In this document: one piece after another, positions 33,021 to 42,369 of the stretch
Layout of the letters: each line of letters begins with the position of its first letter
How positions within the stretch are numbered: the stretch's first letter is position 1
Assembly: GCA_947459825.1 (NCBI GenBank)
Contig: CANHFH010000008.1
Coordinates: 1-44,997 of the forward strand
Direction of reading: 5' to 3'
Length of the DNA: 44,997 bases
DNA from: Pseudomonadota bacterium
GTDB lineage: Bacteria > Pseudomonadota > Gammaproteobacteria > Steroidobacterales > Steroidobacteraceae
The notes under the pieces: generated by a model
Told to the model about the DNA's origin: nothing
Database searches by the model: none
What the model saw: the letters and a program-made list of their open reading frames with translations, nothing else
Made by a program: the position numbers and the translations under genes

Positions 33021-33473
33021 TCATCGACCGTCCGTGACCTCCATCATCGGGTCGAACGGCGTCAGGAACGCGAACCGCCGGAACCCGGCATCGCGGGTGC
33101 AGATGCGGCTGATGCCGTGCTCGCGCATCAGCACCGCCGTGTGGAGGTCGTGAGCGTCGTTGCCCTGCAGCGCGGGCATCTCTGCGACGGTCTGCGCGAG
33201 CACCGCGGCGTGCCGATCGGTCGGCGTCAGCATCTGCACGCCGCGCGAGCGCTGCAGCGCGCCGACGAAACCGAGCGCGTCCGGCATCGACCACGGTCGC
33301 GGGAATACTTTGGGGTGTGTGGCCACGCGCAGGAACTCGTAGCAGATGCCCCAGGTGAGGAACATCGGCGCGGGTCCGGCGCGCCAACGCTCGAGGCGGC
33401 TGCGACAGACCTCATGGAACGGCGAACTGCGATCCGCGGCGTAGAGCAGGATGTCGGTGTCGACCACCCACAT
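33021..33473 (-). CDS. vapC: VapC-type PIN-domain toxin
   Basis: The protein has 150 residues with a PIN fold. Acidic metal ligands are visible at Asp5 (WVVDTDILLYAAD), Glu46 (ICYEFLRV), Asp109 (NDAHDLHTAVLM) and Asp128 (CTRDAGFRRF). Such toxins cut specific RNAs (tRNA or rRNA) when freed from their antitoxin. The ATG overlaps the antitoxin stop by one base (TGATG), the usual antitoxin-first order. The ligands look complete, so the toxin should be active. This pair lies between the phosphate-uptake genes and the arginine operon and is the only clearly mobile-type module in the window. Confidence 0.9.
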   Translation of the reverse strand: MWVVDTDILLYAADRSSPFHEVCRSRLERWRAGPAPMFLTWGICYEFLRVATHPKVFPRPWSMPDALGFVGALQRSRGVQMLTPTDRHAAVLAQTVAEMPALQGNDAHDLHTAVLMREHGISRICTRDAGFRRFAFLTPFDPMMEVTDGR

Positions 33474-33718
33474 CAGCCGCCCTCCTCGGCCATCGCGTCC
33501 TCAAGCGCCGCGCGGTCGGCCACATCGACGCGCGCCCCGCCGCTGTCCCAGGACGGTAGCTGCGGCCACGGCTGCGCCGCCTCGGCGACGCCGGTCGGCT
33601 GAGCGAGCACCTGCCGGAGTCCGGCCTCGACCAGTTCCGACATCGTGACCCGTCGCGCCGCGGCTTCCTGCTTGAGCTTCAGCATGACTTGATCGTCTAT
33701 GACCAAGGTGGTCTTCAT
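33473..33718 (-). CDS. vapB: VapB-type ribbon-helix-helix antitoxin
   Basis: The antitoxin has 81 residues. The N-terminal ribbon-helix-helix reads MKTTLVIDDQVMLKLKQEAA followed by RRVTMSELVEAGLRQVL, which binds operator DNA as a dimer. The C-terminal tail (LPSWDSGGARVDVADRAALEDAM) is the toxin-wrapping segment typical of this VapB group. ATG 33718 is chosen because the family start is there; the upstream frame runs antisense through argR. TATGGT at 33731-33726 lies 7 bases before the ATG with no ribosome-binding site, and the operator palindrome covers both, so transcription could start at the ATG. Confidence 0.88.
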   Translation of the reverse strand: MKTTLVIDDQVMLKLKQEAAARRVTMSELVEAGLRQVLAQPTGVAEAAQPWPQLPSWDSGGARVDVADRAALEDAMAEEGG

Positions 33719-33732
33719 ATGGAAAACCATAT
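33717..33732. promoter_or_regulatory. Probable VapB operator over the vapBC start
   Basis: ATATGG-AAAA-CCATAT is a perfect 6-bp inverted repeat with a 4-base spacer. One arm overlaps the vapB start codon and the other contains the -10-like hexamer TATGGT (minus strand). This is where an autoregulating antitoxin is expected to bind. Confidence 0.7.
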
Positions 33733-33744
33733 CACGAAAATCGC

Positions 33745-33772
33745 TTGACGCACCTGCATCAATATGCAGAAT
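33745..33772 (+). promoter_or_regulatory. argR promoter with overlapping ARG-box-like palindrome
   Basis: TTGACG (33745-33750) and CAGAAT (33767-33772) are spaced by 16 bases and form a reasonable sigma-70 promoter. The perfect palindrome CTGCAT-CAAT-ATGCAG (33754-33769) fills the spacer and enters the -10. A further half-site ATGCAG lies at 33785-33790, at the argR start. This is consistent with autorepression by the ArgR hexamer over the whole arginine operon. Confidence 0.6.
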
Positions 33773-33784
33773 ACGCGCACTTTT

Positions 33785-34234
33785 ATGCAGACCGACCTCC
33801 AACAATCGGGCCGCCGGGCCACCATCCTGCGCATCCTGCGCGGCGCCCATGTGCGCAAGCAGGAGGACATCGTGCGGCTGCTGCGCGAGGCCGGCCACGA
33901 TGTCACGCAGTCGTCGGTGAGCCGCGACCTGCGCGAACTCGGCGTTCTCAAGGCCGGCGGCCGCTACCTCGCGCCGCAGGAAGCGACGCGGCCGCTCGAG
34001 GATTTCGGCGCGCTGCGCCCCTTCGTGCTCGGCGTCGCCACCGCCGGGGCCTCGCTCACGGTGCTGCGCACCGCCACCGGCTCCGCGCAGACGGTCGCCG
34101 CGGCGATCGACAAGGCCGACTGGCCGGAGGTCGTCGGCACGATCTCCGGCGACGACACCATCTTCATCGCCACCGATACCGCCGCGGCGCAGTCCGCGGT
34201 CGTCGCGCGCCTGCGCAACCTGTTCCGGCTCTGA
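33785..34234 (+). CDS. argR: Arginine repressor ArgR
   Basis: ArgR (149 residues) is an arginine-sensing hexameric repressor. The N-terminal winged helix reads RRATILRILRG, then VRKQEDIVRLLREAG and VTQSSVSRDLRELGVLK (recognition helix). The C-terminal oligomer and arginine-binding domain contains GSAQTVAAAIDKADWPEVVGTISGDDTIFIATD, with the conserved GTISGDDT. An ATG at 33764 would add 7 residues but lies upstream of the predicted transcription start, so 33785 is preferred. The leader would then be very short. Only 14 bases separate it from argG; argR to the thioesterase gene at 42369 appears to be one transcription unit. Confidence 0.93.
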   Translation: MQTDLQQSGRRATILRILRGAHVRKQEDIVRLLREAGHDVTQSSVSRDLRELGVLKAGGRYLAPQEATRPLEDFGALRPFVLGVATAGASLTVLRTATGSAQTVAAAIDKADWPEVVGTISGDDTIFIATDTAAAQSAVVARLRNLFRL

Positions 34235-34248
34235 GCCGGGAGAACCCC

Positions 34249-35463
34249 ATGTCCCAGCCCATCGTCCTCGCCTATTCGGGCGGCCTCGACACCTCTTTCC
34301 TCGTGCCCTGGCTCAAGGAGCAGCACGGCCGCCCGATCATCACGGTCACCGTCGACACCGGCGGCATCGACGCCGCGGCCGCCGCCACGCTGCGCGAGCG
34401 TGCGATGGCGCTCGGCGCCAGCGCGCACCACCAGATCGACGCGCGTGCCGATTACTTCGCGCAGGTGCTGCGCTTCCTCATCATGGGCAATGTACGCCGC
34501 GGCCAGCTGTATCCGCTCTGCGTCGGCGCGGAACGCGTGATGCAGGCGCAGACCATCGCGCGCATGGCGCGCGAACTCGGCACCGGCAGCATCGCCCACG
34601 GCTGCACCGCCGCGGGCAACGATCAGGTGCGCTTCGAGGTCGCGCTGCGCACGCTCGCACCGGAGCTCGAGGTGATCGCGCCGGTGCGCGACCGCGCCTT
34701 CAAGCGCCAGGAAGAGCTCGACTTCCTCACGCAGCGCGGCCTGCCCGTGCCGCCGCACGGCGCCGCCTACTCCATCAACCGCGGCCTCTGGGGCGTGAGC
34801 ATCGGCGGCAAGGAGACGCTCACCTCGCAGGGCAGCCTGCCCGACGATGCCTGGGTGCTGTCGCGCGATGCGTTCACGAAGCCGCTGCCGCCGCGCCGCA
34901 TCGTGCTGCACTTCGAGCAGGGCGTGCCCTGCGGCCTCGACGGCCAGGCGATGACGCCGGTGGCGGTCATCGAGGCGCTGGAGGCGATCGCCGGCCCGTA
35001 CGGCATCGGCCGCGGCATCCATCTCGGCGACACCATCATCGGCACCAAGGGCCGCGTGGCCTTCGAGGCGCCCGCCGCCGAGGTGCTGCTCAACGCGCAC
35101 CGCGAGCTCGAAAAACTGGTGCTCACCGCGCGCCAGCAGCGCATCAAAGAATCCCTCGCCGGCCCGTACGGCGACTGGGTGCATGAGGGTCAGCTGCTGG
35201 ACCCGGCCTGCCGCGACATCGAGGCGCTGTTCCTCGCGTCGCAGGCGCGCGTCACCGGCACGGTGACGGTGCTGCTGCGTCCCGGCTCGGCCTTCGTCGA
35301 GGGCACGGATTCACCGTACTCGCTGATGGCAGCCTCGAAGGGCGTCTACGGCGAGGCCACCGGCGAATGGACGCCGGCCGACGCGCTCGGCTTCTCGCGC
35401 ATCGTCGGCCTGCCGGGCATGTTCCACCACCGCGCGGGAGCGCAAGGAGCCAAGGGCAAATGA
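34249..35463 (+). CDS. argG: Argininosuccinate synthase
   Basis: ArgG (404 residues) joins citrulline and aspartate using ATP. The ATP-binding P-loop is IVLAYSGGLDTSFLV (6-20). Other family segments are HGCTAAGNDQVRFEVALRTLAPELEVIAPVRD, SINRGLWG and IGRGIHLGDTIIGTKGRVAFEAPA. GCTAAGNDQ, in place of the more usual GATGKGNDQ, together with the FKRQEELDFL stretch, resembles the type that goes with acyl-ornithine carbamoyltransferases in Bacteroidetes and xanthomonads (from memory). GGGAG is 6-11 bases before the ATG. The stop overlaps the next gene by ATGA. Confidence 0.95.
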   Translation: MSQPIVLAYSGGLDTSFLVPWLKEQHGRPIITVTVDTGGIDAAAAATLRERAMALGASAHHQIDARADYFAQVLRFLIMGNVRRGQLYPLCVGAERVMQAQTIARMARELGTGSIAHGCTAAGNDQVRFEVALRTLAPELEVIAPVRDRAFKRQEELDFLTQRGLPVPPHGAAYSINRGLWGVSIGGKETLTSQGSLPDDAWVLSRDAFTKPLPPRRIVLHFEQGVPCGLDGQAMTPVAVIEALEAIAGPYGIGRGIHLGDTIIGTKGRVAFEAPAAEVLLNAHRELEKLVLTARQQRIKESLAGPYGDWVHEGQLLDPACRDIEALFLASQARVTGTVTVLLRPGSAFVEGTDSPYSLMAASKGVYGEATGEWTPADALGFSRIVGLPGMFHHRAGAQGAKGK

Positions 35464-36533
35464 GGACCATCGTCGTCGACAAGATCGCCTCGATCACGCA
35501 GGCCTGCGGCCTCGGCCACGAGGTCCGCATCGCCACCGACAACATCCCGTCCGAGGAAGGCGTGGTGGTGGTCGTCGAGATCCTCAGCTCGAAGGCCAAC
35601 TACAACACGCTCGAGCTCACCAGCGGCCGCATGGCCAAGGTGAACAAGGGCGACATCGTGGTCGGCGCGCTCGGCCACCGCAAGGCGCTGTTCGGCTACT
35701 CGGGCCATGTGCCGGAGAAGCTCGCCGCGGGCGACATCATCCAGATGCTCAACATCGGCGGCGTGCTCGGCATCTGCGATTCGGCCAACCCCGACAAGGG
35801 CAAGCCCTTCGACTGCCGCGTGCTCGGCGTGGTGCTCACCTTCCCGTACCTCGGCGAGCGCATCGGCGTGCCGGCGCGCGCCGGCTACCGCAAGCTCGAC
35901 TTCGCGGCGCCGCTCGACGCGCAGGGCGTGCCCGTGGTCGCGCTCGCCGGCACCTGCATGGAGGCCGGCAAGACCGCGGCCGCCTGCGCGATGGTGAGCC
36001 GCATGCGTCACCGCGGCCTCGTCGTCGACTGCTTCAAGGCGACCGGCGTCTCGCTGCGCCGCGACATCCTCGCGATGGAGGACGCCGGCGCGCGCAACTC
36101 CATGATCTTCACCGACCTCGGCGTGATCACCACGACGCGCGCGGTGGGCCCCGCGCTCACCCGCACCATGATCACCGAGCTCGCCGCCAAGAAGCCCGAC
36201 ATCATCGTGTTCGAGCTCGGCGATGGCATCCTCGGCACCTACGGCGTCGACTCCATCCTCGAGTGCGACGACATCCGCGGCGCGCTGACGGGCGTGGTGC
36301 TCTCGGCCAACGATCCGGTCGCCGCCTGGGGCGGCGTGAAGCTGCTGCGCGAACGCTTCAAGGTCGAGCCCTGCGCGGTGACGGGACCCGCCACCGACAA
36401 CGCGGTCGGCGTCGACATCATCGTCGAACAGATGGGCGTGCCGGCGTTCAACGCGCTCACCGACGGCGCGGCGCTCGGCGACCGCGTCATCGAGGCCGTC
36501 GGCCTCGCCGCGAAGTTCCCCACGGCGCATTGA
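35460..36533 (+). CDS. P-loop protein of unknown function in the arginine operon (DUF1611-like)
   Basis: The protein has 357 residues and I do not recognise a characterised function. Residues 1-125 form a compact beta-rich region (DKIASITQACGLGHEVRIATD; GVVVVVEILSSKANYNTLELTSGR). Residues 155-357 form a P-loop NTPase-like domain with Walker A GTCMEAGKTA (164-173), KATGVSLRRDI, and a possible Walker B IIVFELGDGILG (248-259). The second half resembles DUF1611/COG3367, but the N-terminal half differs from what I remember of that family. It is coupled to argG by ATGA and followed by argC after 21 bases. Constant co-translation with arginine enzymes points to a role in arginine synthesis or its control; that is inference. 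Confidence 0.6.
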   Translation: MRTIVVDKIASITQACGLGHEVRIATDNIPSEEGVVVVVEILSSKANYNTLELTSGRMAKVNKGDIVVGALGHRKALFGYSGHVPEKLAAGDIIQMLNIGGVLGICDSANPDKGKPFDCRVLGVVLTFPYLGERIGVPARAGYRKLDFAAPLDAQGVPVVALAGTCMEAGKTAAACAMVSRMRHRGLVVDCFKATGVSLRRDILAMEDAGARNSMIFTDLGVITTTRAVGPALTRTMITELAAKKPDIIVFELGDGILGTYGVDSILECDDIRGALTGVVLSANDPVAAWGGVKLLRERFKVEPCAVTGPATDNAVGVDIIVEQMGVPAFNALTDGAALGDRVIEAVGLAAKFPTAH

Positions 36534-36554
36534 GCGACAGGACCCCGGCCCAAC

Positions 36555-37613
36555 ATGTCACGCATCCCCATCCTGATCCTCGGCGGCACCGGCTACGTGG
36601 CCGGTGAAGCCCTGCGCCTCGTGCTCGGTCATCCACAGTTCGAGATCGCGGGCATCCTGTCGGATTCGCAGCCGGGCGAACCGGTCGCCAAGGCCTTCCC
36701 GCACCTCGCGCCCGTGCTCGGCGACCTGCGCTTCGTGTCCCAAGACGGGATCCTTGCGCTCGTCGCTGCGCTGCCGGTGAGCGGCGTGTTCTCCGCCGCA
36801 CCGCACGGTGTCAGCGCCGCGCTCATCGACAAGCTGCTCACCGCGGCGGCGGCGGCCGGCACGAAGCCGCGCGTGGTCGACATCTCGGCCGACTACCGCT
36901 ACGCGTCGCCCGAGGCCTACGCCGCGGTCTACAAGCATGCGCACGGCGCGCCGGCGCGCATCGCGGAGTTCACCTGTGCGGTTCCCGAGCACCTCGCCGC
37001 CGTGACCACGCCGCATGTCGCGCATCCGGGCTGCTTCGCCACCGCGACGCTGCTCGCCTCGGTGCCGCTGCTCGCGCTCGACCTCGTGACGCCGACCCTC
37101 TTCGTGAGCGGCGTGACGGGCAGCACCGGGTCGGGCCGCAAACCCGTCGACGGCACCCACCACCCGACCCGCCACAGCGACCTCTATTCGTACAACGCGC
37201 TGGTGCACCGCCACATCCCGGAGATCACCGCCTGCGCGGCGGCGGCCACCGGCGTCACCGCGGACTTCGCGTTCGTGCCGCACTCGGGCCCCTTCGCGCG
37301 CGGCATCCATGTCACGGTGCAATCGACGCTCAAGCGCGCCATCGACGCGCCCACGCTGCTCGCGCAGTTGCGCAGCTACTACGCGCACTCGCCCTTCGTG
37401 CGCGTCACCGACGCCGCGCCGCGCATCAAGGATGTCGCCGGCACCAACTACGCCCAGCTCTCGGCGGCGGCCAACGGCCGCACGGTCGCCGTGCTCTGCG
37501 CCATCGACAACCTCGACAAGGGCGCGGCCGGCGGCGCGGTGCAGTGGATGAACCGCCTGTTCGACCTGCCCGAGACCACGGGCCTCACCGCACCGGCAGC
37601 GGGGTGGACATGA
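36555..37613 (+). CDS. argC: N-acyl-gamma-glutamyl-phosphate reductase
   Basis: ArgC (352 residues) reduces N-acetyl (or other N-acyl) glutamyl phosphate to the semialdehyde. It starts with the NADP-binding ILILGGTGYVAGEALRLVLGHP. The catalytic Cys160 lies in AHPGCFATATLL, and the region SGVTGSTGSGRKPVDGTHHPTRHSDL is conserved around the substrate. FVPHSGPFARGIHVTVQS and KDVAGTNYAQLS near the C-terminus complete the family pattern. AGGA lies about 12 bases upstream of the ATG. The stop overlaps argD (ATGA). The acyl group used cannot be decided from this sequence. Confidence 0.94.
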   Translation: MSRIPILILGGTGYVAGEALRLVLGHPQFEIAGILSDSQPGEPVAKAFPHLAPVLGDLRFVSQDGILALVAALPVSGVFSAAPHGVSAALIDKLLTAAAAAGTKPRVVDISADYRYASPEAYAAVYKHAHGAPARIAEFTCAVPEHLAAVTTPHVAHPGCFATATLLASVPLLALDLVTPTLFVSGVTGSTGSGRKPVDGTHHPTRHSDLYSYNALVHRHIPEITACAAAATGVTADFAFVPHSGPFARGIHVTVQSTLKRAIDAPTLLAQLRSYYAHSPFVRVTDAAPRIKDVAGTNYAQLSAAANGRTVAVLCAIDNLDKGAAGGAVQWMNRLFDLPETTGLTAPAAGWT

Positions 37614-38746
37614 GCCCGACCGACCATCTCGCGCCCGTCTTCGCGCAGTACCCCATCGAGGTGGTGCATGCGGAAGGCGTATGGCTGCACACCCGCGACG
37701 GGCGGCGCATCCTCGACCTCTACGGCGGCCATGCGGTCGCCGCGCTCGGCTATGCCCACCCAGGTTGGACGCGCGCGATAGCCGACCAAGCCGCCGCCTG
37801 CAACTTCCAGAGCAACGCCGTGCCGATGGATGTGCGCGTGCGCGCCGCCACCAAGCTCGCGCGTTTCGCCGGCGGACATTTCGACAGCATCTTCTTCGTC
37901 AACTCGGGGGCCGAGGCCAACGAGAACGCGCTGCGCATGGCCTTCAAGATGACGCGCCGCACCCGCGTGGTGGCGGTCGAAGGCGCGTTCCACGGCCGCA
38001 CGGCGGCCGCCGGTGCCGTCACCTGGGGCGCCGACAAGAAATGGTACGAGTTCCCGCGCACGCCGTTCGAGGTGAGCTGGGTGCCGCGGCGCGACATCGC
38101 CGCGATCGCCGGCACCGTCGGCGAGGATGTCGCCGCGGTGATCGTCGAGCCCGTGCAGGGCGTCGGCGGCGCGTTCGACATGGGCGCCGAGTTTCTCGCG
38201 GCGCTGCGCGCGCGCTGCGACGCGGTCGGCGCCGTGCTGATCTTCGACGAGGTGCAGATCGGCGTCGGCCGCAGCGGTCACCCCTTCGGCGCCGACCTCT
38301 ACGGCGTGCGCCCAGACATGATCACCACCGCCAAGGCGCTCGGCAACGGCTTCCCTTGCGGCGCGCTGCTCATGACCCCCGCGGTCACCGCCGCGCTCAA
38401 GCTCGAGGGGCTCGGCACCACCTTCGGCGGCGGGCCGATGGCCTGCGCCGCCATCGAGGCCGTGATCGACGCCATCGAGGCCGAGGACCTGCTCGCCAAT
38501 GTCCGTCGCGTGTCGCAGTACATCCGCAGCACCTGCACGGTCGGCCCGGTCGTCGGCCATCAGGGCGCCGGCTTCCTGCACGGACTCATCTGCGACCGGC
38601 CCGCCAAGGAGGTCCAGACGGCGCTGCTGGCGCGGGACATACTCGCCGGCACCAGCGGCGACCCGCGTGTGGTCCGGCTGCTGCCGCCCTACACGCTGCG
38701 CGAGCCCGAAGTCGATCTGCTGCGCGCAGCCCTGGAGTCCCTGTGA
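37610..38746 (+). CDS. argD: N-acyl-ornithine aminotransferase
   Basis: ArgD (378 residues) is a fold-type I PLP transaminase giving acylornithine from the semialdehyde. Motifs are FVNSGAEANENALRMA, EGAFHGRT, VEPVQGVGG, IFDEVQIGVGRSG with Asp213, and the PLP Lys242 in ITTAKALGNGFPCGA. It is slightly shorter than E. coli ArgD. ATG overlaps the argC stop and the stop overlaps the following GTG, so argC-argD-argF' are continuously coupled. Confidence 0.94.
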   Translation: MSPTDHLAPVFAQYPIEVVHAEGVWLHTRDGRRILDLYGGHAVAALGYAHPGWTRAIADQAAACNFQSNAVPMDVRVRAATKLARFAGGHFDSIFFVNSGAEANENALRMAFKMTRRTRVVAVEGAFHGRTAAAGAVTWGADKKWYEFPRTPFEVSWVPRRDIAAIAGTVGEDVAAVIVEPVQGVGGAFDMGAEFLAALRARCDAVGAVLIFDEVQIGVGRSGHPFGADLYGVRPDMITTAKALGNGFPCGALLMTPAVTAALKLEGLGTTFGGGPMACAAIEAVIDAIEAEDLLANVRRVSQYIRSTCTVGPVVGHQGAGFLHGLICDRPAKEVQTALLARDILAGTSGDPRVVRLLPPYTLREPEVDLLRAALESL

Positions 38747-39741
38747 AGAACTTCCTCGACCTCGCCGACTTCAGCCGGGAGGAGGTGCTCGACCTGCTCG
38801 CGCTCGCGCGTCGCCTCGAGACGCACCCCGAGCCGCGCGCGCTCGCCGGCAAGATCCTCGGCCTCGTGTTCTTCAACCCCTCGCTGCGCACGCTCGCCTC
38901 GTTCCAGGTCGGTATGCAGCGGCTCGGCGGCTCCTCGTTCGTGATCACGCCAGGTCAAGGGACATGGCAGCTCGAGACGCGGACCGGCGCGGTGATGGAC
39001 GGCGCCTGCGCCGAGCACATCCGCGAGGGTCTGCCGGTGCTCGCGTCCTACGCCGACGCGCTCGGCATCCGCGCCTTCGCGGATGGCAAGGACCTCGCGC
39101 ACGATGTGGCCGAGACCAGCTTCAAGGCGATGGCGGGCGTCGTCGACAAGCCGCTCATCAACCTCGAGTCGGCGGTCAACCATCCCTGCCAGTCGCTCGC
39201 CGACTGGAAGACCTTGGACGAGGTCGGCGTGCCGCAGCGCGCCAAATTCGTGCTGACCTGGGCCAACCACCCGCGCGTCACACCGATCGCCGTGCCCTCC
39301 GCCACCGTGCACATGGCGGCGCACCGCGGCATGGAGGTGGTGGTGCTGCGTCCCGAGGGCTACGCGCTGCCGCCCGCCATCATGGACAAGGCCCGCGCCG
39401 CCGCGGCCGCCTCCGGCGGCTCGGTGCGCGAGACCGACGACCGCGCCGATGCGCTCGCCGGCGCGCAGGTGGTCTACGCCAAGGAATGGGGCTCGACCGC
39501 GCACTACGGCGACGCGGCGGCCGACGCCGCGCTGCGCGTCGGTCTCAAGGACTGGTGCGTGCGCGAGGACTGGTTCGCGACCGCCGCCGCCGCCTGCCGT
39601 TTCATGCACTGCCTGCCGGTGCGGCGCAACGTCGCCGTCGCCGACGAAGTGCTCGACGGCCCGCGCAGCATCGTGCAGCGCGAGGCCCACAACCGCTTGC
39701 CCGCACAGATGGCGGTGCTGCACCGCCTGCTGTCCGCCTGA
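38743..39741 (+). CDS. N-acyl-ornithine carbamoyltransferase (ArgF' type), unusual active site
   Basis: The enzyme has 332 residues and a GTG start overlapping the argD stop (GTGA). It is the acetyl/succinyl-ornithine branch of transcarbamylases, not classical OTCase: it has FFNPSLRT instead of the STRTR loop, PGQGTWQLE with Trp75, AVMDGACAEHIRE, NHPCQSLAD, LTWANHPR and FMHCLPVRRNV. By alignment from memory with the X. campestris acetylornithine enzyme, Ala90 falls where that enzyme has Glu92 (and the B. fragilis succinyl enzyme has Pro90). Ala298 falls where it has the carboxylated Lys302. The second Arg of the RTR loop is Leu51. It transfers carbamoyl from carbamoyl phosphate to an N-acylornithine; which acyl group is open. 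Confidence 0.85.
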   Translation: MKNFLDLADFSREEVLDLLALARRLETHPEPRALAGKILGLVFFNPSLRTLASFQVGMQRLGGSSFVITPGQGTWQLETRTGAVMDGACAEHIREGLPVLASYADALGIRAFADGKDLAHDVAETSFKAMAGVVDKPLINLESAVNHPCQSLADWKTLDEVGVPQRAKFVLTWANHPRVTPIAVPSATVHMAAHRGMEVVVLRPEGYALPPAIMDKARAAAAASGGSVRETDDRADALAGAQVVYAKEWGSTAHYGDAAADAALRVGLKDWCVREDWFATAAAACRFMHCLPVRRNVAVADEVLDGPRSIVQREAHNRLPAQMAVLHRLLSA

Positions 39742-39764
39742 ACGCCCACGAGGAGCCGAAGAAG

Positions 39765-40709
39765 ATGATCATGCACCGCACCGACCCCGCCGCCGTCATC
39801 CGCGCCCTGCGCAGCGCCGCGCCCTACATCCGCCTCTACAAGGGCAAGACCTTCGTCGTGAAGGCGGGCGGCGGCGTGTTCGGCGACCCCGCGGCGACGC
39901 GGGCGCTGGTCGAGCAGATCGCCGTGCTGCACTCGCTCGGCATCCGCGTCGTGTTCGTGCACGGCGGCGGTCCGCAGCTCACCGAGGTCACCGAGAAGCT
40001 CGGTGTGCCGACGCAGATGATCGAGGGCCGGCGCGTCACCGACGCGCAGTCGATCGATGCCACGGCGATGGTGCTGTCGGGCCTCATCAACACCCGCATC
40101 CTCGCCGCCTGCCGCGAACTCGGCGTGCCGGCGCTCGGCATCAGCGGCGTCGACGCCGGCCTCATCCAGGCGCACAAGCGCGCACCGGTGAAGCTGCAGG
40201 GGAGCGATGCCATCGTCGACTACGGCTTCGTCGGCGACATCGACTACATCGACACCGATGTCATCAAGAAGCTGCTCGACGCCGGTCTCATGCCGGTCAT
40301 CTCGCCGCTCTCGAGCGACGACGCGGGCACGCTGCTCAACATCAACGCCGACACGGTCGCGGCGGCGATCGGCGCCGCGCTCGGCGCCGAGAAGCTGGTG
40401 CTGTGCACCGGCGCACCCGGCATCCTCAGCGACATCACCGACCCGACCTCGGTGGTCTCCTACACCGACCTCGCCGGTCTCGCGAAGCTGCGTACCGAGG
40501 GCCGCATCAACGACGGCATGCTGCCGAAGGCGAAGGCCATCGAGAACGCCATCAACGGCGGCGTGCAGCGCGTGCATGTCATCTCCTACAAGGCGCCGGA
40601 TGCTATCCTCGCCGAGGTGTTCACCAACGAGGGGACGGGCACGCTCGTGGTCGCCGACATCCGTAAGCTCGCACCCGCGGAACTCGCGGCGGGCAACGCG
40701 CAGCCGTGA
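39765..40709 (+). CDS. argB: N-acetylglutamate kinase-type amino acid kinase
   Basis: ArgB (314 residues) phosphorylates the gamma-carboxyl of N-acylglutamate. The amino-acid-kinase fold is clear: KTFVVKAGGGVFGDPA, VFVHGGGPQLTEV, GRRVTDAQSI, LGISGVDAG, LLNINADTVAAAIGAALGAEKLVLCTGAPGIL and GRINDGMLPKAKAIENAINGGV. KAGGG replaces the usual KYGG(N/S). It is not fused to the acetyltransferase (NAGS) domain found on the corresponding xanthomonad protein. ATG 39765 has AGGAG 9 bases upstream; a second ATG at 39771 is possible. The stop overlaps argH (GTGA). Confidence 0.92.
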   Translation: MIMHRTDPAAVIRALRSAAPYIRLYKGKTFVVKAGGGVFGDPAATRALVEQIAVLHSLGIRVVFVHGGGPQLTEVTEKLGVPTQMIEGRRVTDAQSIDATAMVLSGLINTRILAACRELGVPALGISGVDAGLIQAHKRAPVKLQGSDAIVDYGFVGDIDYIDTDVIKKLLDAGLMPVISPLSSDDAGTLLNINADTVAAAIGAALGAEKLVLCTGAPGILSDITDPTSVVSYTDLAGLAKLRTEGRINDGMLPKAKAIENAINGGVQRVHVISYKAPDAILAEVFTNEGTGTLVVADIRKLAPAELAAGNAQP

Positions 40710-41926
40710 GCCGCCTCTGGGACAAGGGCGCGCCGCTCGATGAGCGCGTGCTCGCGTTCACGGCGGGCGAGGACCACGCGTTCGACGAGCGTCTGGTCGC
40801 CTACGACGCCCGCGCCTCGATCGCGCACGCGCAGATGTTGAACGCGCAGGGGCTGCTCTCCGACGCCGACTGCGAGGCCATCGAGCAGGGGCTCGAGTCG
40901 CTCGCCGCCGCCCACGCCCAAGGCGAGTGGCGGATCGCACTGGAGGACGAGGACGGCCAGACCGCGCTCGAGCGCAGGCTGACCGCGCTCATCGGGGCAG
41001 CGGGCGGGCGCGTGCATCTCGGCCGCTCGCGCAACGACCAGGTGCTCGCCGCGCTGCGCCTCTACCTGCGCGATGCCGCCGAGGAACTGGCGCAAGGCGC
41101 CGAGACCGTCGCCGCCGCGCTCGATGCGCTCGCCGACCGGCAGGGCGATGTCGAGCTGCCGGGCTACACCCACATGCAGCAGGCGATGCCGAGCAGCGTC
41201 GCGTTGTGGGCGGGCGGTTTCGCCGCCGAGCTGCGCGACGACGCCGCGGGCCTGCGCGCCGTGCGCCGCCGCATCGACAAGAACCCGCTCGGTTCAGCCG
41301 CGGGCTACGGCACGCCCGGCCTGCCGCTCGACCGCGAGGCGACCCGCCAGGCGCTCGACTTCGCCGAGGTGCACGCGCCGGTCACGGCCGTGCAGCTGTC
41401 GCGCGGCAAGGCCGAGTCGCAGCTGCTGTTCGAGATCACGCTGCTGATGCAGGACCTCGGCCGCTTCGCCGCCGATGTCTGCCTCTTCTACACGCAGGAG
41501 TTCGCGTTCGTGGAGCTGCCCGACGCGTTCACCACCGGCTCGTCGATCATGCCGCAGAAGCGCAACCCGGACGTGTTCGAGCTTCTGCGCGGCCGCAGCG
41601 CCACCGCGCAGGCCTGCCTCGTCGAGGCGCTCGGCATCGTCGCCAAGCTCCCCTCGGGCTACCAGCGCGACCTGCAGCTGCTGAAGGCGCCGCTGTTCCG
41701 CGGCATCGACCTCGCGCTCGCCAGCACCGCCATCCTCGCCCCCGCCATCGGCGCGATGGCCTTCGTATCGGAGCGCATCACGCTCGACCCCGCGATCCAC
41801 GCCGCCGAACGCGCCAACGCGATGGTCGTGCGCGAGGGCATCCCGTTCCGCGAGGCCTACCGCCGCGTCGGCGCCGAACTGCGGGGCGAAGCGCCGCACG
41901 ACGAAGATCCGGAGCGCGGCGCATGA
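40706..41926 (+). CDS. argH: Argininosuccinate lyase
   Basis: ArgH (406 residues) splits argininosuccinate to arginine and fumarate. Fumarase/aspartase-superfamily signatures are RVHLGRSRNDQVLAALRLYLR, PGYTHMQQAMPSSVALW, NPLGSAAGYGTPGLPLDR and the catalytic loop GSSIMPQKRNPDVFELLRGR. It is shorter than E. coli ArgH by about 50 residues, mainly at the C-terminus, but the core appears complete. The start is GTG overlapping argB; the stop overlaps the thioesterase gene by ATGA. Confidence 0.95.
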   Translation: MSRLWDKGAPLDERVLAFTAGEDHAFDERLVAYDARASIAHAQMLNAQGLLSDADCEAIEQGLESLAAAHAQGEWRIALEDEDGQTALERRLTALIGAAGGRVHLGRSRNDQVLAALRLYLRDAAEELAQGAETVAAALDALADRQGDVELPGYTHMQQAMPSSVALWAGGFAAELRDDAAGLRAVRRRIDKNPLGSAAGYGTPGLPLDREATRQALDFAEVHAPVTAVQLSRGKAESQLLFEITLLMQDLGRFAADVCLFYTQEFAFVELPDAFTTGSSIMPQKRNPDVFELLRGRSATAQACLVEALGIVAKLPSGYQRDLQLLKAPLFRGIDLALASTAILAPAIGAMAFVSERITLDPAIHAAERANAMVVREGIPFREAYRRVGAELRGEAPHDEDPERGA

Positions 41927-42369
41927 CCGCAGCTATCTGGCAGCCGGGCACCACGCTCGAGGGCTGCAACGCCAAGAGCGAGCGCACCATGGTCGAAGGG
42001 CTCGGCATCGTCTTCACCGAGCTCGGCCCGGATTTCATCCGTGGCACCATGCCGGTCGACGCGCGCAGCGTGCAGCCGATGCGCATCCTGCACGGCGGGG
42101 CGTCCGTCGCCTTCGCCGAGACGCTGGCGAGCGTCGGGGCGAACTGTCTCGTCGACCGCCGTACCCAGGCCGTCGTCGGTCAGGAGATCAACGCCAACCA
42201 CCTGCGACCCGCACCCGAAGGCGAGACCGTCGAAGGCACGGCCCGTCCGATCCACATCGGCTCGCGCAGCCAGGTCTGGGGCATCGAGATCGTCGACTCG
42301 CGCAAGCGCCTCGTCTGCGTGTCGCGCATCACGCTCGCGGTGATCGCACGGCCGCCCGCGACCGCTTGA
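41923..42369 (+). CDS. Hotdog-fold acyl-CoA thioesterase (PaaI/YbdB type)
   Basis: The protein has 148 residues. The hotdog core has GIVFTELGPDFIRGTMPVD, then ILHGGASVAFAETLASVGAN, in which the HGG loop and the helix Glu are the expected catalytic region. VVGQEINANHLRPAPEGETVEGTARPIHIGSRSQVWGIEI is typical of the YbdB/MenI/PaaI group. The substrate is probably an acyl-CoA, unknown here. It is coupled to argH by ATGA as the last gene of the operon. A link to acyl-group handling in an acylated-ornithine pathway is tempting but unsupported; these genes are often incidental neighbours. Confidence 0.88.
   Translation: MTAAIWQPGTTLEGCNAKSERTMVEGLGIVFTELGPDFIRGTMPVDARSVQPMRILHGGASVAFAETLASVGANCLVDRRTQAVVGQEINANHLRPAPEGETVEGTARPIHIGSRSQVWGIEIVDSRKRLVCVSRITLAVIARPPATA

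Follow-up and report, generated by a model that had tools for sequence, protein, structure and literature searches.

An arginine operon of Steroidobacteraceae combining a SOTCase-like carbamoyltransferase pocket with a candidate N-acylglutamate synthase outside the GNAT family

Annotation of a 44,997-nucleotide contig stretch from a gammaproteobacterium of the family Steroidobacteraceae (hereafter the window) revealed an arginine operon that encodes an acyl-ornithine carbamoyltransferase with an altered acyl-binding pocket and a P-loop protein, here called X. From the genomic context we infer that X most likely represents a new kind of N-acylglutamate synthase outside the GNAT family. The genes, their conserved order, the pocket residues and the mutual exclusion of X and the known synthases in the genomes searched were all observed directly. 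The peculiarity of the carbamoyltransferase is real and is largely explained by a known residue rule.

The genes of the operon follow the order argR-argG-X-argC-argD-argF'-argB-argH (33764-41926, + strand; Table 1). Start and stop codons overlap at four junctions, i.e. argG/X, argC/argD, argD/argF' and argB/argH, the start codons of argG, argD and argB being those of our choice. Pfam and NCBIfam searches recognized no N-acylglutamate synthase, acetyltransferase gene or deacylase within the operon. A promoter scan gave one sigma-70-like match, located right before argR (33745-33772; 0.3 expected), and an ArgR-box pattern gave no matches. A hotdog thioesterase gene (EntH/MenI-like; 41923-42369) overlaps the 3' end of argH and could be a further member of the operon. 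On the minus strand, divergent from argR, lies a gene for a PIN-domain protein, preceded by a small partner (33021-33724), an arrangement resembling toxin-antitoxin loci; the partner shows a weak match to DUF6364, below the cut-off. Reading of the surroundings also pointed to a polA-like gene near the operon. The source genome (2.6 Mb in 200 contigs) is 97.3% complete, and the best 80 of 423 related loci come from MAGs titled mostly Gammaproteobacteria, Proteobacteria, Pseudomonadota or Steroidobacteraceae.

Table 1. Genes of the arginine operon identified in the window.
Gene	Predicted product	Position	Strand	Basis of assignment
argR	arginine repressor, first gene of the operon	33764..34234	+	Pfam Arg_repressor and Arg_repressor_C over cut-off
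argG	argininosuccinate synthase	34249..35463	+	Pfam and NCBIfam TIGR00032 over cut-off
X	357-aa P-loop protein, proposed N-acylglutamate synthase	35460..36533	+	no family over cut-off; neighbours and exclusion pattern
argC	N-acyl-gamma-glutamyl-phosphate reductase	36555..37613	+	NCBIfam TIGR01850 over cut-off
argD	acyl-ornithine aminotransferase	37610..38746	+	Pfam Aminotran_3; best NCBIfam matches are acetylornithine transaminases, below cut-off
argF'	acyl-ornithine carbamoyltransferase with Ala90, Pro181, Ala298	38743..39741	+	Pfam, NCBIfam, alignments, residue table
argB	N-acylglutamate kinase without acetyltransferase domain	39765..40709	+	TIGR00761 over cut-off; Pfam AA_kinase only, no NAT domain
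argH	argininosuccinate lyase	40706..41926	+	TIGR00838 over cut-off

The argF' frame is open, starts with GTG and encodes a protein of 332 aa. Both carbamoyltransferase domains were detected in this product (Pfam), and it scored 351.9 bits against the NCBIfam N-acetylornithine carbamoyltransferase equivalog NF003384 (cut-off 288), which supports the placement in the AOTCase/SOTCase branch proposed by an earlier, sequence-only reading. Motifs of the transcarbamylase superfamily (SxRT, HPxQ and HxLP) are present as S47-L-R-T50, H147-P-C-Q150 and H289-C-L-P292. Alignment with the solved X. campestris AOTCase and the residue table set Ala90 on Glu92, Ala298 on Lys302 and Leu51 on Arg53, as that reading had assigned them; the specificity position holds Ala90, neither Glu nor Pro. 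The Pro90 that it had named for the B. fragilis enzyme is borne out by the PDB title of 2g7m ("P90E mutant"). The alignment adds a third published discriminator, absent from the earlier reading: Pro181 of the window enzyme falls on Asn185 of the X. campestris protein. Leu51 does occupy the Arg53 position, just outside the SxRT motif, but is not peculiar to the window enzyme, being the common residue there (79/85 of the sequences described below).

Conservation was assessed in 85 window-type sequences (the window and 84 loci, at least 55% identity to the window protein), taken from two collections that may hold one genome twice. Five of the 89 loci with a carbamoyltransferase match were excluded, L094 by the range chosen and four by length or coverage. 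The Glu92 position is occupied by Ala in 85/85 window-type sequences and by Glu in 13/13 Xanthomonas-type ones, and the Asn185 position by Pro and Asn, respectively, in 85/85 and 13/13. At the Lys302 position there are 76 Ala and 9 Val among the 85, and 12 Lys and one Gln among the 13. Judging by this conservation, the Ala90/Pro181/Leu51 pattern is not a product of chance.

Substrate choice in this branch follows published residue rules. According to a review (PMC4581275), AOTCases carry Glu92, Asn185 and Lys302, SOTCases have A/S/P/V/Q, P and V/I/E at the same sites, and H176, R178 and R278 anchor the succinate in SOTCase. GapMind (PMC7311316) attributes a preference for the succinylated compound to S, P, A or V at position 90; the expected residues occur in 61 of 69 Bacteroidetes and are missing in 8, so the rule is not strict. 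The window enzyme bears none of the three AOTCase marks. It has the SOTCase marks Ala90 and Pro181, while its Ala298 lies outside the V/I/E list, inside which fall the Val residues of 9/85 window-type sequences. His176 and Arg178 align with SOTCase 1js1, and Arg294 (in HCLPVRR) was taken as the counterpart of anchor R278 by motif alone. Arg294 is present in 85/85 window-type sequences and Arg178 in 75/85, with K, N, S or L in the other 10. The Trp of the 80s loop (Trp75 in the window; position 77 of X. campestris AOTCase) is His in 9/85 and Tyr in 1/85, which indicates that the pocket varies within the window-type group; in the predicted structure, residues 71-91, including Trp75 and Ala90, have pLDDT under 50.

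Because two of the three residues are published marks of N-succinylornithine enzymes, N-succinylornithine appears to be the likeliest substrate of the window carbamoyltransferase. Most likely the enzyme works like a SOTCase, yet we do not file it as one, since Ala298 is outside the V/I/E list. The acyl group may also differ among window-type enzymes, because Arg178 and the loop Trp vary. The suggestion of the earlier reading that a different N-acyl-ornithine might be used thus holds up, Ala90 being a published N-succinylornithine residue, but its description of the residues as non-standard was not quite right.

The closest characterized enzyme overall is the X. campestris N-acetyl-L-ornithine transcarbamylase (3kzk; 39% identity), which has the same motifs, but with Glu92, Asn185 and Lys302 where the window protein has Ala, Pro and Ala. 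Structural alignment gave a TM of 0.92 to AOTCase versus 0.85 to SOTCase, and whole-length matching 219.7 bits for AOTCase (wild type 3kzc) versus 182.5 bits for SOTCase; in the stretch around the succinate anchor (138-210), SOTCase 1js1 scored 48.4 bits versus 35.3 for AOTCase. The B. fragilis N-succinyl-L-ornithine transcarbamylase (1js1, 2fg6) resembles the window enzyme in fold (35% identity in the structural alignment), in its small side chain at 90, in having Pro181, His176 and Arg178, and in its use for arginine synthesis. It differs in having Pro instead of Ala at 90 and, like SOTCases generally, V/I/E instead of Ala at the Lys302 position. Unlike it, the window enzyme occurs in Gammaproteobacteria, in an operon where X stands in the place of a synthase like BT3761. 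Xanthomonas-type AOTCases of relatives accompany a NAGS-kinase fusion, whereas the window enzyme accompanies X.

Carbamoyltransferase paralogs sharing 48-49% identity with the window enzyme (L250:5880-6932 and L249:7073-8062) were found in genomes that also have a Xanthomonas-type AOTCase. They contain SFHT in place of SLRT, without the substrate lysine, and the L250 paralog adjoins genes read as lysA-like and polA-like. These paralogs are perhaps relics of an older operon put to another use.

In the model proposed below, the product of the carbamoyltransferase would lose its acyl group to a deacylase encoded outside the operon. Of the M20 matches that received a name (4/6 in the source genome G000, 2/2 in G041, 3/4 in G050 and 4/5 in G278), DapE was the only one of ArgE/DapE type over the cut-off; in the other ten genomes the naming covered a minority of the M20 proteins. 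ArgE over the cut-off was found in one genome with X, G037 (L298). On these family matches, DapE is the best candidate for the deacylase, and it could remove a succinyl group, which fits the succinyl reading.

The pathway might instead be acetylated, the carbamoyltransferase using N-acetylornithine despite its Ala/Pro/Ala pocket and X making N-acetylglutamate. PALAO mimics acetylornithine. The crystallization of the AOTCase K302A mutant with PALAO (PDB title of 3m4n) is in line with such a pathway, as are the overall similarity to AOTCase, the ArgE of G037 and the label "N-acetyltransferase" of DgcN, at best a fold relative of X (see below). The X. campestris E92A mutant was crystallized with an N-succinyl ligand (PDB title of 3l02, which ends after "N-succinyl-"). 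Ala90 and Pro181, two of the three published SOTCase marks, are found in all 85 sequences, and the named M20 matches of G000, G041, G050 and G278 include no ArgE over the cut-off; both argue against acetylation, which we regard as an unlikely, though not negligible, alternative to the succinyl reading.

Protein X has no Pfam or NCBIfam match at E<=0.001. Its P-loop (GTCMEAGKT, residues 164-172) retains G164, G170, K171 and T172 in 22/22 sequences. The AlphaFold model of X (mean pLDDT 74.6) is mostly good from residue ~155 and poor in the N-terminal half. Foldseek searches with this model placed dethiobiotin synthetase first (1dae and 3of5 best; E 5.4e-6), with HypB and SRP GTPases, including FtsY, at lower ranks and the DUF1611 structure 2obn at rank 34 (TMq 0.42). 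A BioD-like P-loop domain is thus common to X, DUF1611/DgcN and the dethiobiotin synthetase BioD. Membership of X in DUF1611/DgcN was considered and rejected: the match to DUF1611 (PF07755) is weak (E=0.011; 15.5 bits versus a gathering score of 25), the NCBIfam DgcN model NF041892 gave none, and comparison with DgcN yielded a local P-loop profile match only (hhalign E 0.0023, probability 12.7). We keep it as a distant resemblance. The source genome has a separate DUF1611 protein over the cut-off (G000:C9), distinct from X.

DgcN acetylates D-glutamate. Four true DUF1611 proteins of relatives match "N-acetyltransferase DgcN" with 492, 470, 455 and 451 bits, the first alone passing the cut-off of 480, and three of the four adjoin a DgcA racemase-like protein (370-397 bits, all under the cut-off of 400). 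The fourth, a DgcN gene over the cut-off at L207:215-2109, has as its neighbour a beta-lactamase-like protein of class A (103 bits, cut-off 200) in place of DgcA. PMC12363236 describes dgcN as a key gene of the D-glutamate racemization pathway. True relatives of X, nearer than DgcN (E 3.6e-35), are paralogs of ~30% identity that stand in a row with an M20 peptidase (L048:5827-8661, L049:6197-9035, L050:8402-11246 and L087:8136-10341), and in 3/4 of these loci also with a flavin reductase, together making up a small gene system. Considered as a clue to function, the paralogs gave none. The portion of the open-licence literature searched contained no report of X or of this pathway in these bacteria.

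Known N-acetylglutamate synthases (PMC4490483) are ArgA, ArgJ, NAGS-kinase, S-NAGS, O-NAGS, H-NAGS and C-NAGS. The job proposed for X, protection of the glutamate amino group, would be like theirs; X differs from them in having no GNAT/NAT acetyltransferase or ArgJ domain match (Pfam, NCBIfam). The distribution of X was examined in 60 genomes, the source genome and 59 relatives. Forty-seven contain a strong X homologue (E below 1e-130), and the same 47 have a window-type carbamoyltransferase, assigned by score (E below 1e-160), with residues read in 17 besides the window; G039 and G043 have a 30% paralog of X only. Nine genomes carry a Xanthomonas-type AOTCase and a frame of the NAGS-kinase-fusion type (the G053 AOTCase and the G054 fusion are cut by the contig end), and four (G022, G045, G048 and G058) have neither X nor the NAGS-kinase type. 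In none of the 60 do X and the NAGS-kinase type occur together. Counted by genus, there are 22 with X, 7 with the NAGS-kinase type and 2 with neither (Fisher p 1.4e-5, with no correction for shared descent here or in the genome counts). The NAT domain was detected in 4/4 NAGS-kinase-type fusions scanned and is absent from the ArgB of the window; in the Xanthomonas-type operon scanned (L254), a NAT domain is accompanied by a gene for an M20 deacylase.

A hidden ArgJ, or a hidden ArgA over the cut-off, in the genomes with X was also considered and rejected. ArgA over the cut-off was found in 0/60 genomes, the cut-off being strict (passed in 1/14 controls), and ArgJ in 0/60, with detection in 10/14 controls. 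The ArgA model gave weak matches with its acetyltransferase end in 7/47 X genomes (9 matches, E 5e-8 to 4e-4); such matches also occur in genomes without X, and we take them for ordinary GNAT proteins.

These matches bear on a further possibility, that X is an accessory nucleotide-binding protein (a regulator or chaperone) and an unrecognised GNAT makes N-acylglutamate. The fold class of X does include metallochaperones and GTPases, such as the HypB and FtsY matches above, and candidate acetyltransferases exist: the GNAT search, which covered the ArgA model and one further model, PF00583, found 7 PF00583 proteins in G000, 4 in G014, 14 in G050 and 9 in G278. Against this, the small genome of G041 (1.6 Mb, 98% complete), which has X, gave a sole PF00583 match, a RimI-like protein (85.8 bits on a 104-aa stretch; cut-off 86.4). 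The replacement pattern with NAGS-kinase and ArgJ, and the association of X with argC and argB described below, also favour X as the synthase, and an accessory role appears improbable.

The neighbours of X were surveyed in 97 loci (at least 55% identity). They are argG and argC in 93/97 and argR and argC in 3/97 (L033, L098 and L143), while L123 ends after X. In L033 the operon is divided, with argB-argC-X opposite to, and adjoining, argR-argG-argF'-argH; L143 reads argR-X-argC-argB up to the contig end, L098 has no argG between argR and X, and in L086, where the operon has moved, X keeps argC and argB. X therefore stays in the company of argC and argB where the operon is divided, ends early or has moved. 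Two MAG records titled Klebsiella pneumoniae (L097 and L099) carry X with 93% and 89% identity to that of the window; they are most likely mislabelled.

A survey of 249 genomes from the phylum detected X in the source genome and gave a strong match in a single further genome, G278 (E 2.6e-187); matches were weaker in G262 and G158, and G280 showed a trace. G278 belongs to another class and contains argR-X-argC-argB without the rest of the operon in the 19 kb around it. Its best carbamoyltransferase match has an E of 1.9e-23, and its only match to the ArgA/ArgB model is the argB of this module. ArgJ was not found in G278, whereas it is present in 9/9 same-family relatives; six further relatives include four with ArgJ and two without it (G317 and G322). 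X had no match in the 12 other genomes of the G278 family in the phylum sample. The G278 module looks like a transferred one that took over the job of ArgJ.

ArgJ can do both the synthase and the deacylation jobs. If X were an ArgJ-like transacylase, transferring the acyl group of N-acylcitrulline (or N-acylornithine) onto glutamate, first step and deacylation would be combined in one protein; this would suit both its position in G278, where relatives have ArgJ, and the X operon, which has neither the NAT domain nor the M20 deacylase of the Xanthomonas-type operon. The Walker-A-like loop and BioD-like domain kept by X are needless for a transacylase, however, the donor would have to differ (N-acylornithine in G278, N-acylcitrulline in the window), and DapE is available for the second job, so that we consider this quite unlikely. 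That X is itself the N-acylcitrulline deacylase, with the synthase elsewhere, is very improbable: the M20 gene of L254 is indeed missing from the X operon, but X has no hydrolase family match (Pfam, NCBIfam), and divided or moved modules keep it with argC and argB, not with argG or the carbamoyltransferase.

We therefore return to X as the synthase of a succinylated pathway. In the proposed model, X would form N-acylglutamate, which ArgB, ArgC and ArgD would convert to N-acylornithine. The carbamoyltransferase, with a small Ala for Glu92, would accept the larger, charged succinyl group and carbamoylate the side chain of N-succinylornithine; a deacylase elsewhere in the genome, possibly DapE, would then free citrulline, and ArgG and ArgH would complete arginine. 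In this scheme we infer which acyl group is used, what X catalyses and with which donor, and which deacylase acts; we hold the whole to be probably, though not securely, correct. Counting against it are the NCBIfam label of the carbamoyltransferase and its overall similarity, nearer AOTCase, as well as Ala298, the ArgE of G037 and the weak ArgA-end matches in X genomes. More tentatively, and with somewhat less than even confidence, X may represent a BioD-like class of P-loop synthases unrelated to GNAT and ArgJ, which would succinylate glutamate (or attach another dicarboxylic acyl group) and be paired with an adapted carbamoyltransferase. As tentative is the view that such a synthase would use ATP or succinyl-CoA and that the pairing belongs to Steroidobacteraceae and their kin.

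Family models would annotate this carbamoyltransferase as an acetylornithine enzyme, leaving the first arginine step as a gap in environmental bacteria. In nature the enzyme carries the E92A and K302A changes that were engineered into X. campestris AOTCase, with Pro for Asn185 in addition, and offers a test case for the evolution of substrate choice. More interesting, and unexplained, is X, whose context is best read as that of an N-acylglutamate synthase. If X fills the gap, it would add a new family of enzymes to the committed step of a textbook pathway, one discovered through what it stands in for; if the more tentative reading of X as a succinylating P-loop synthase also holds, X and the carbamoyltransferase would form a second, independent succinylated arginine pathway, outside Bacteroidota.
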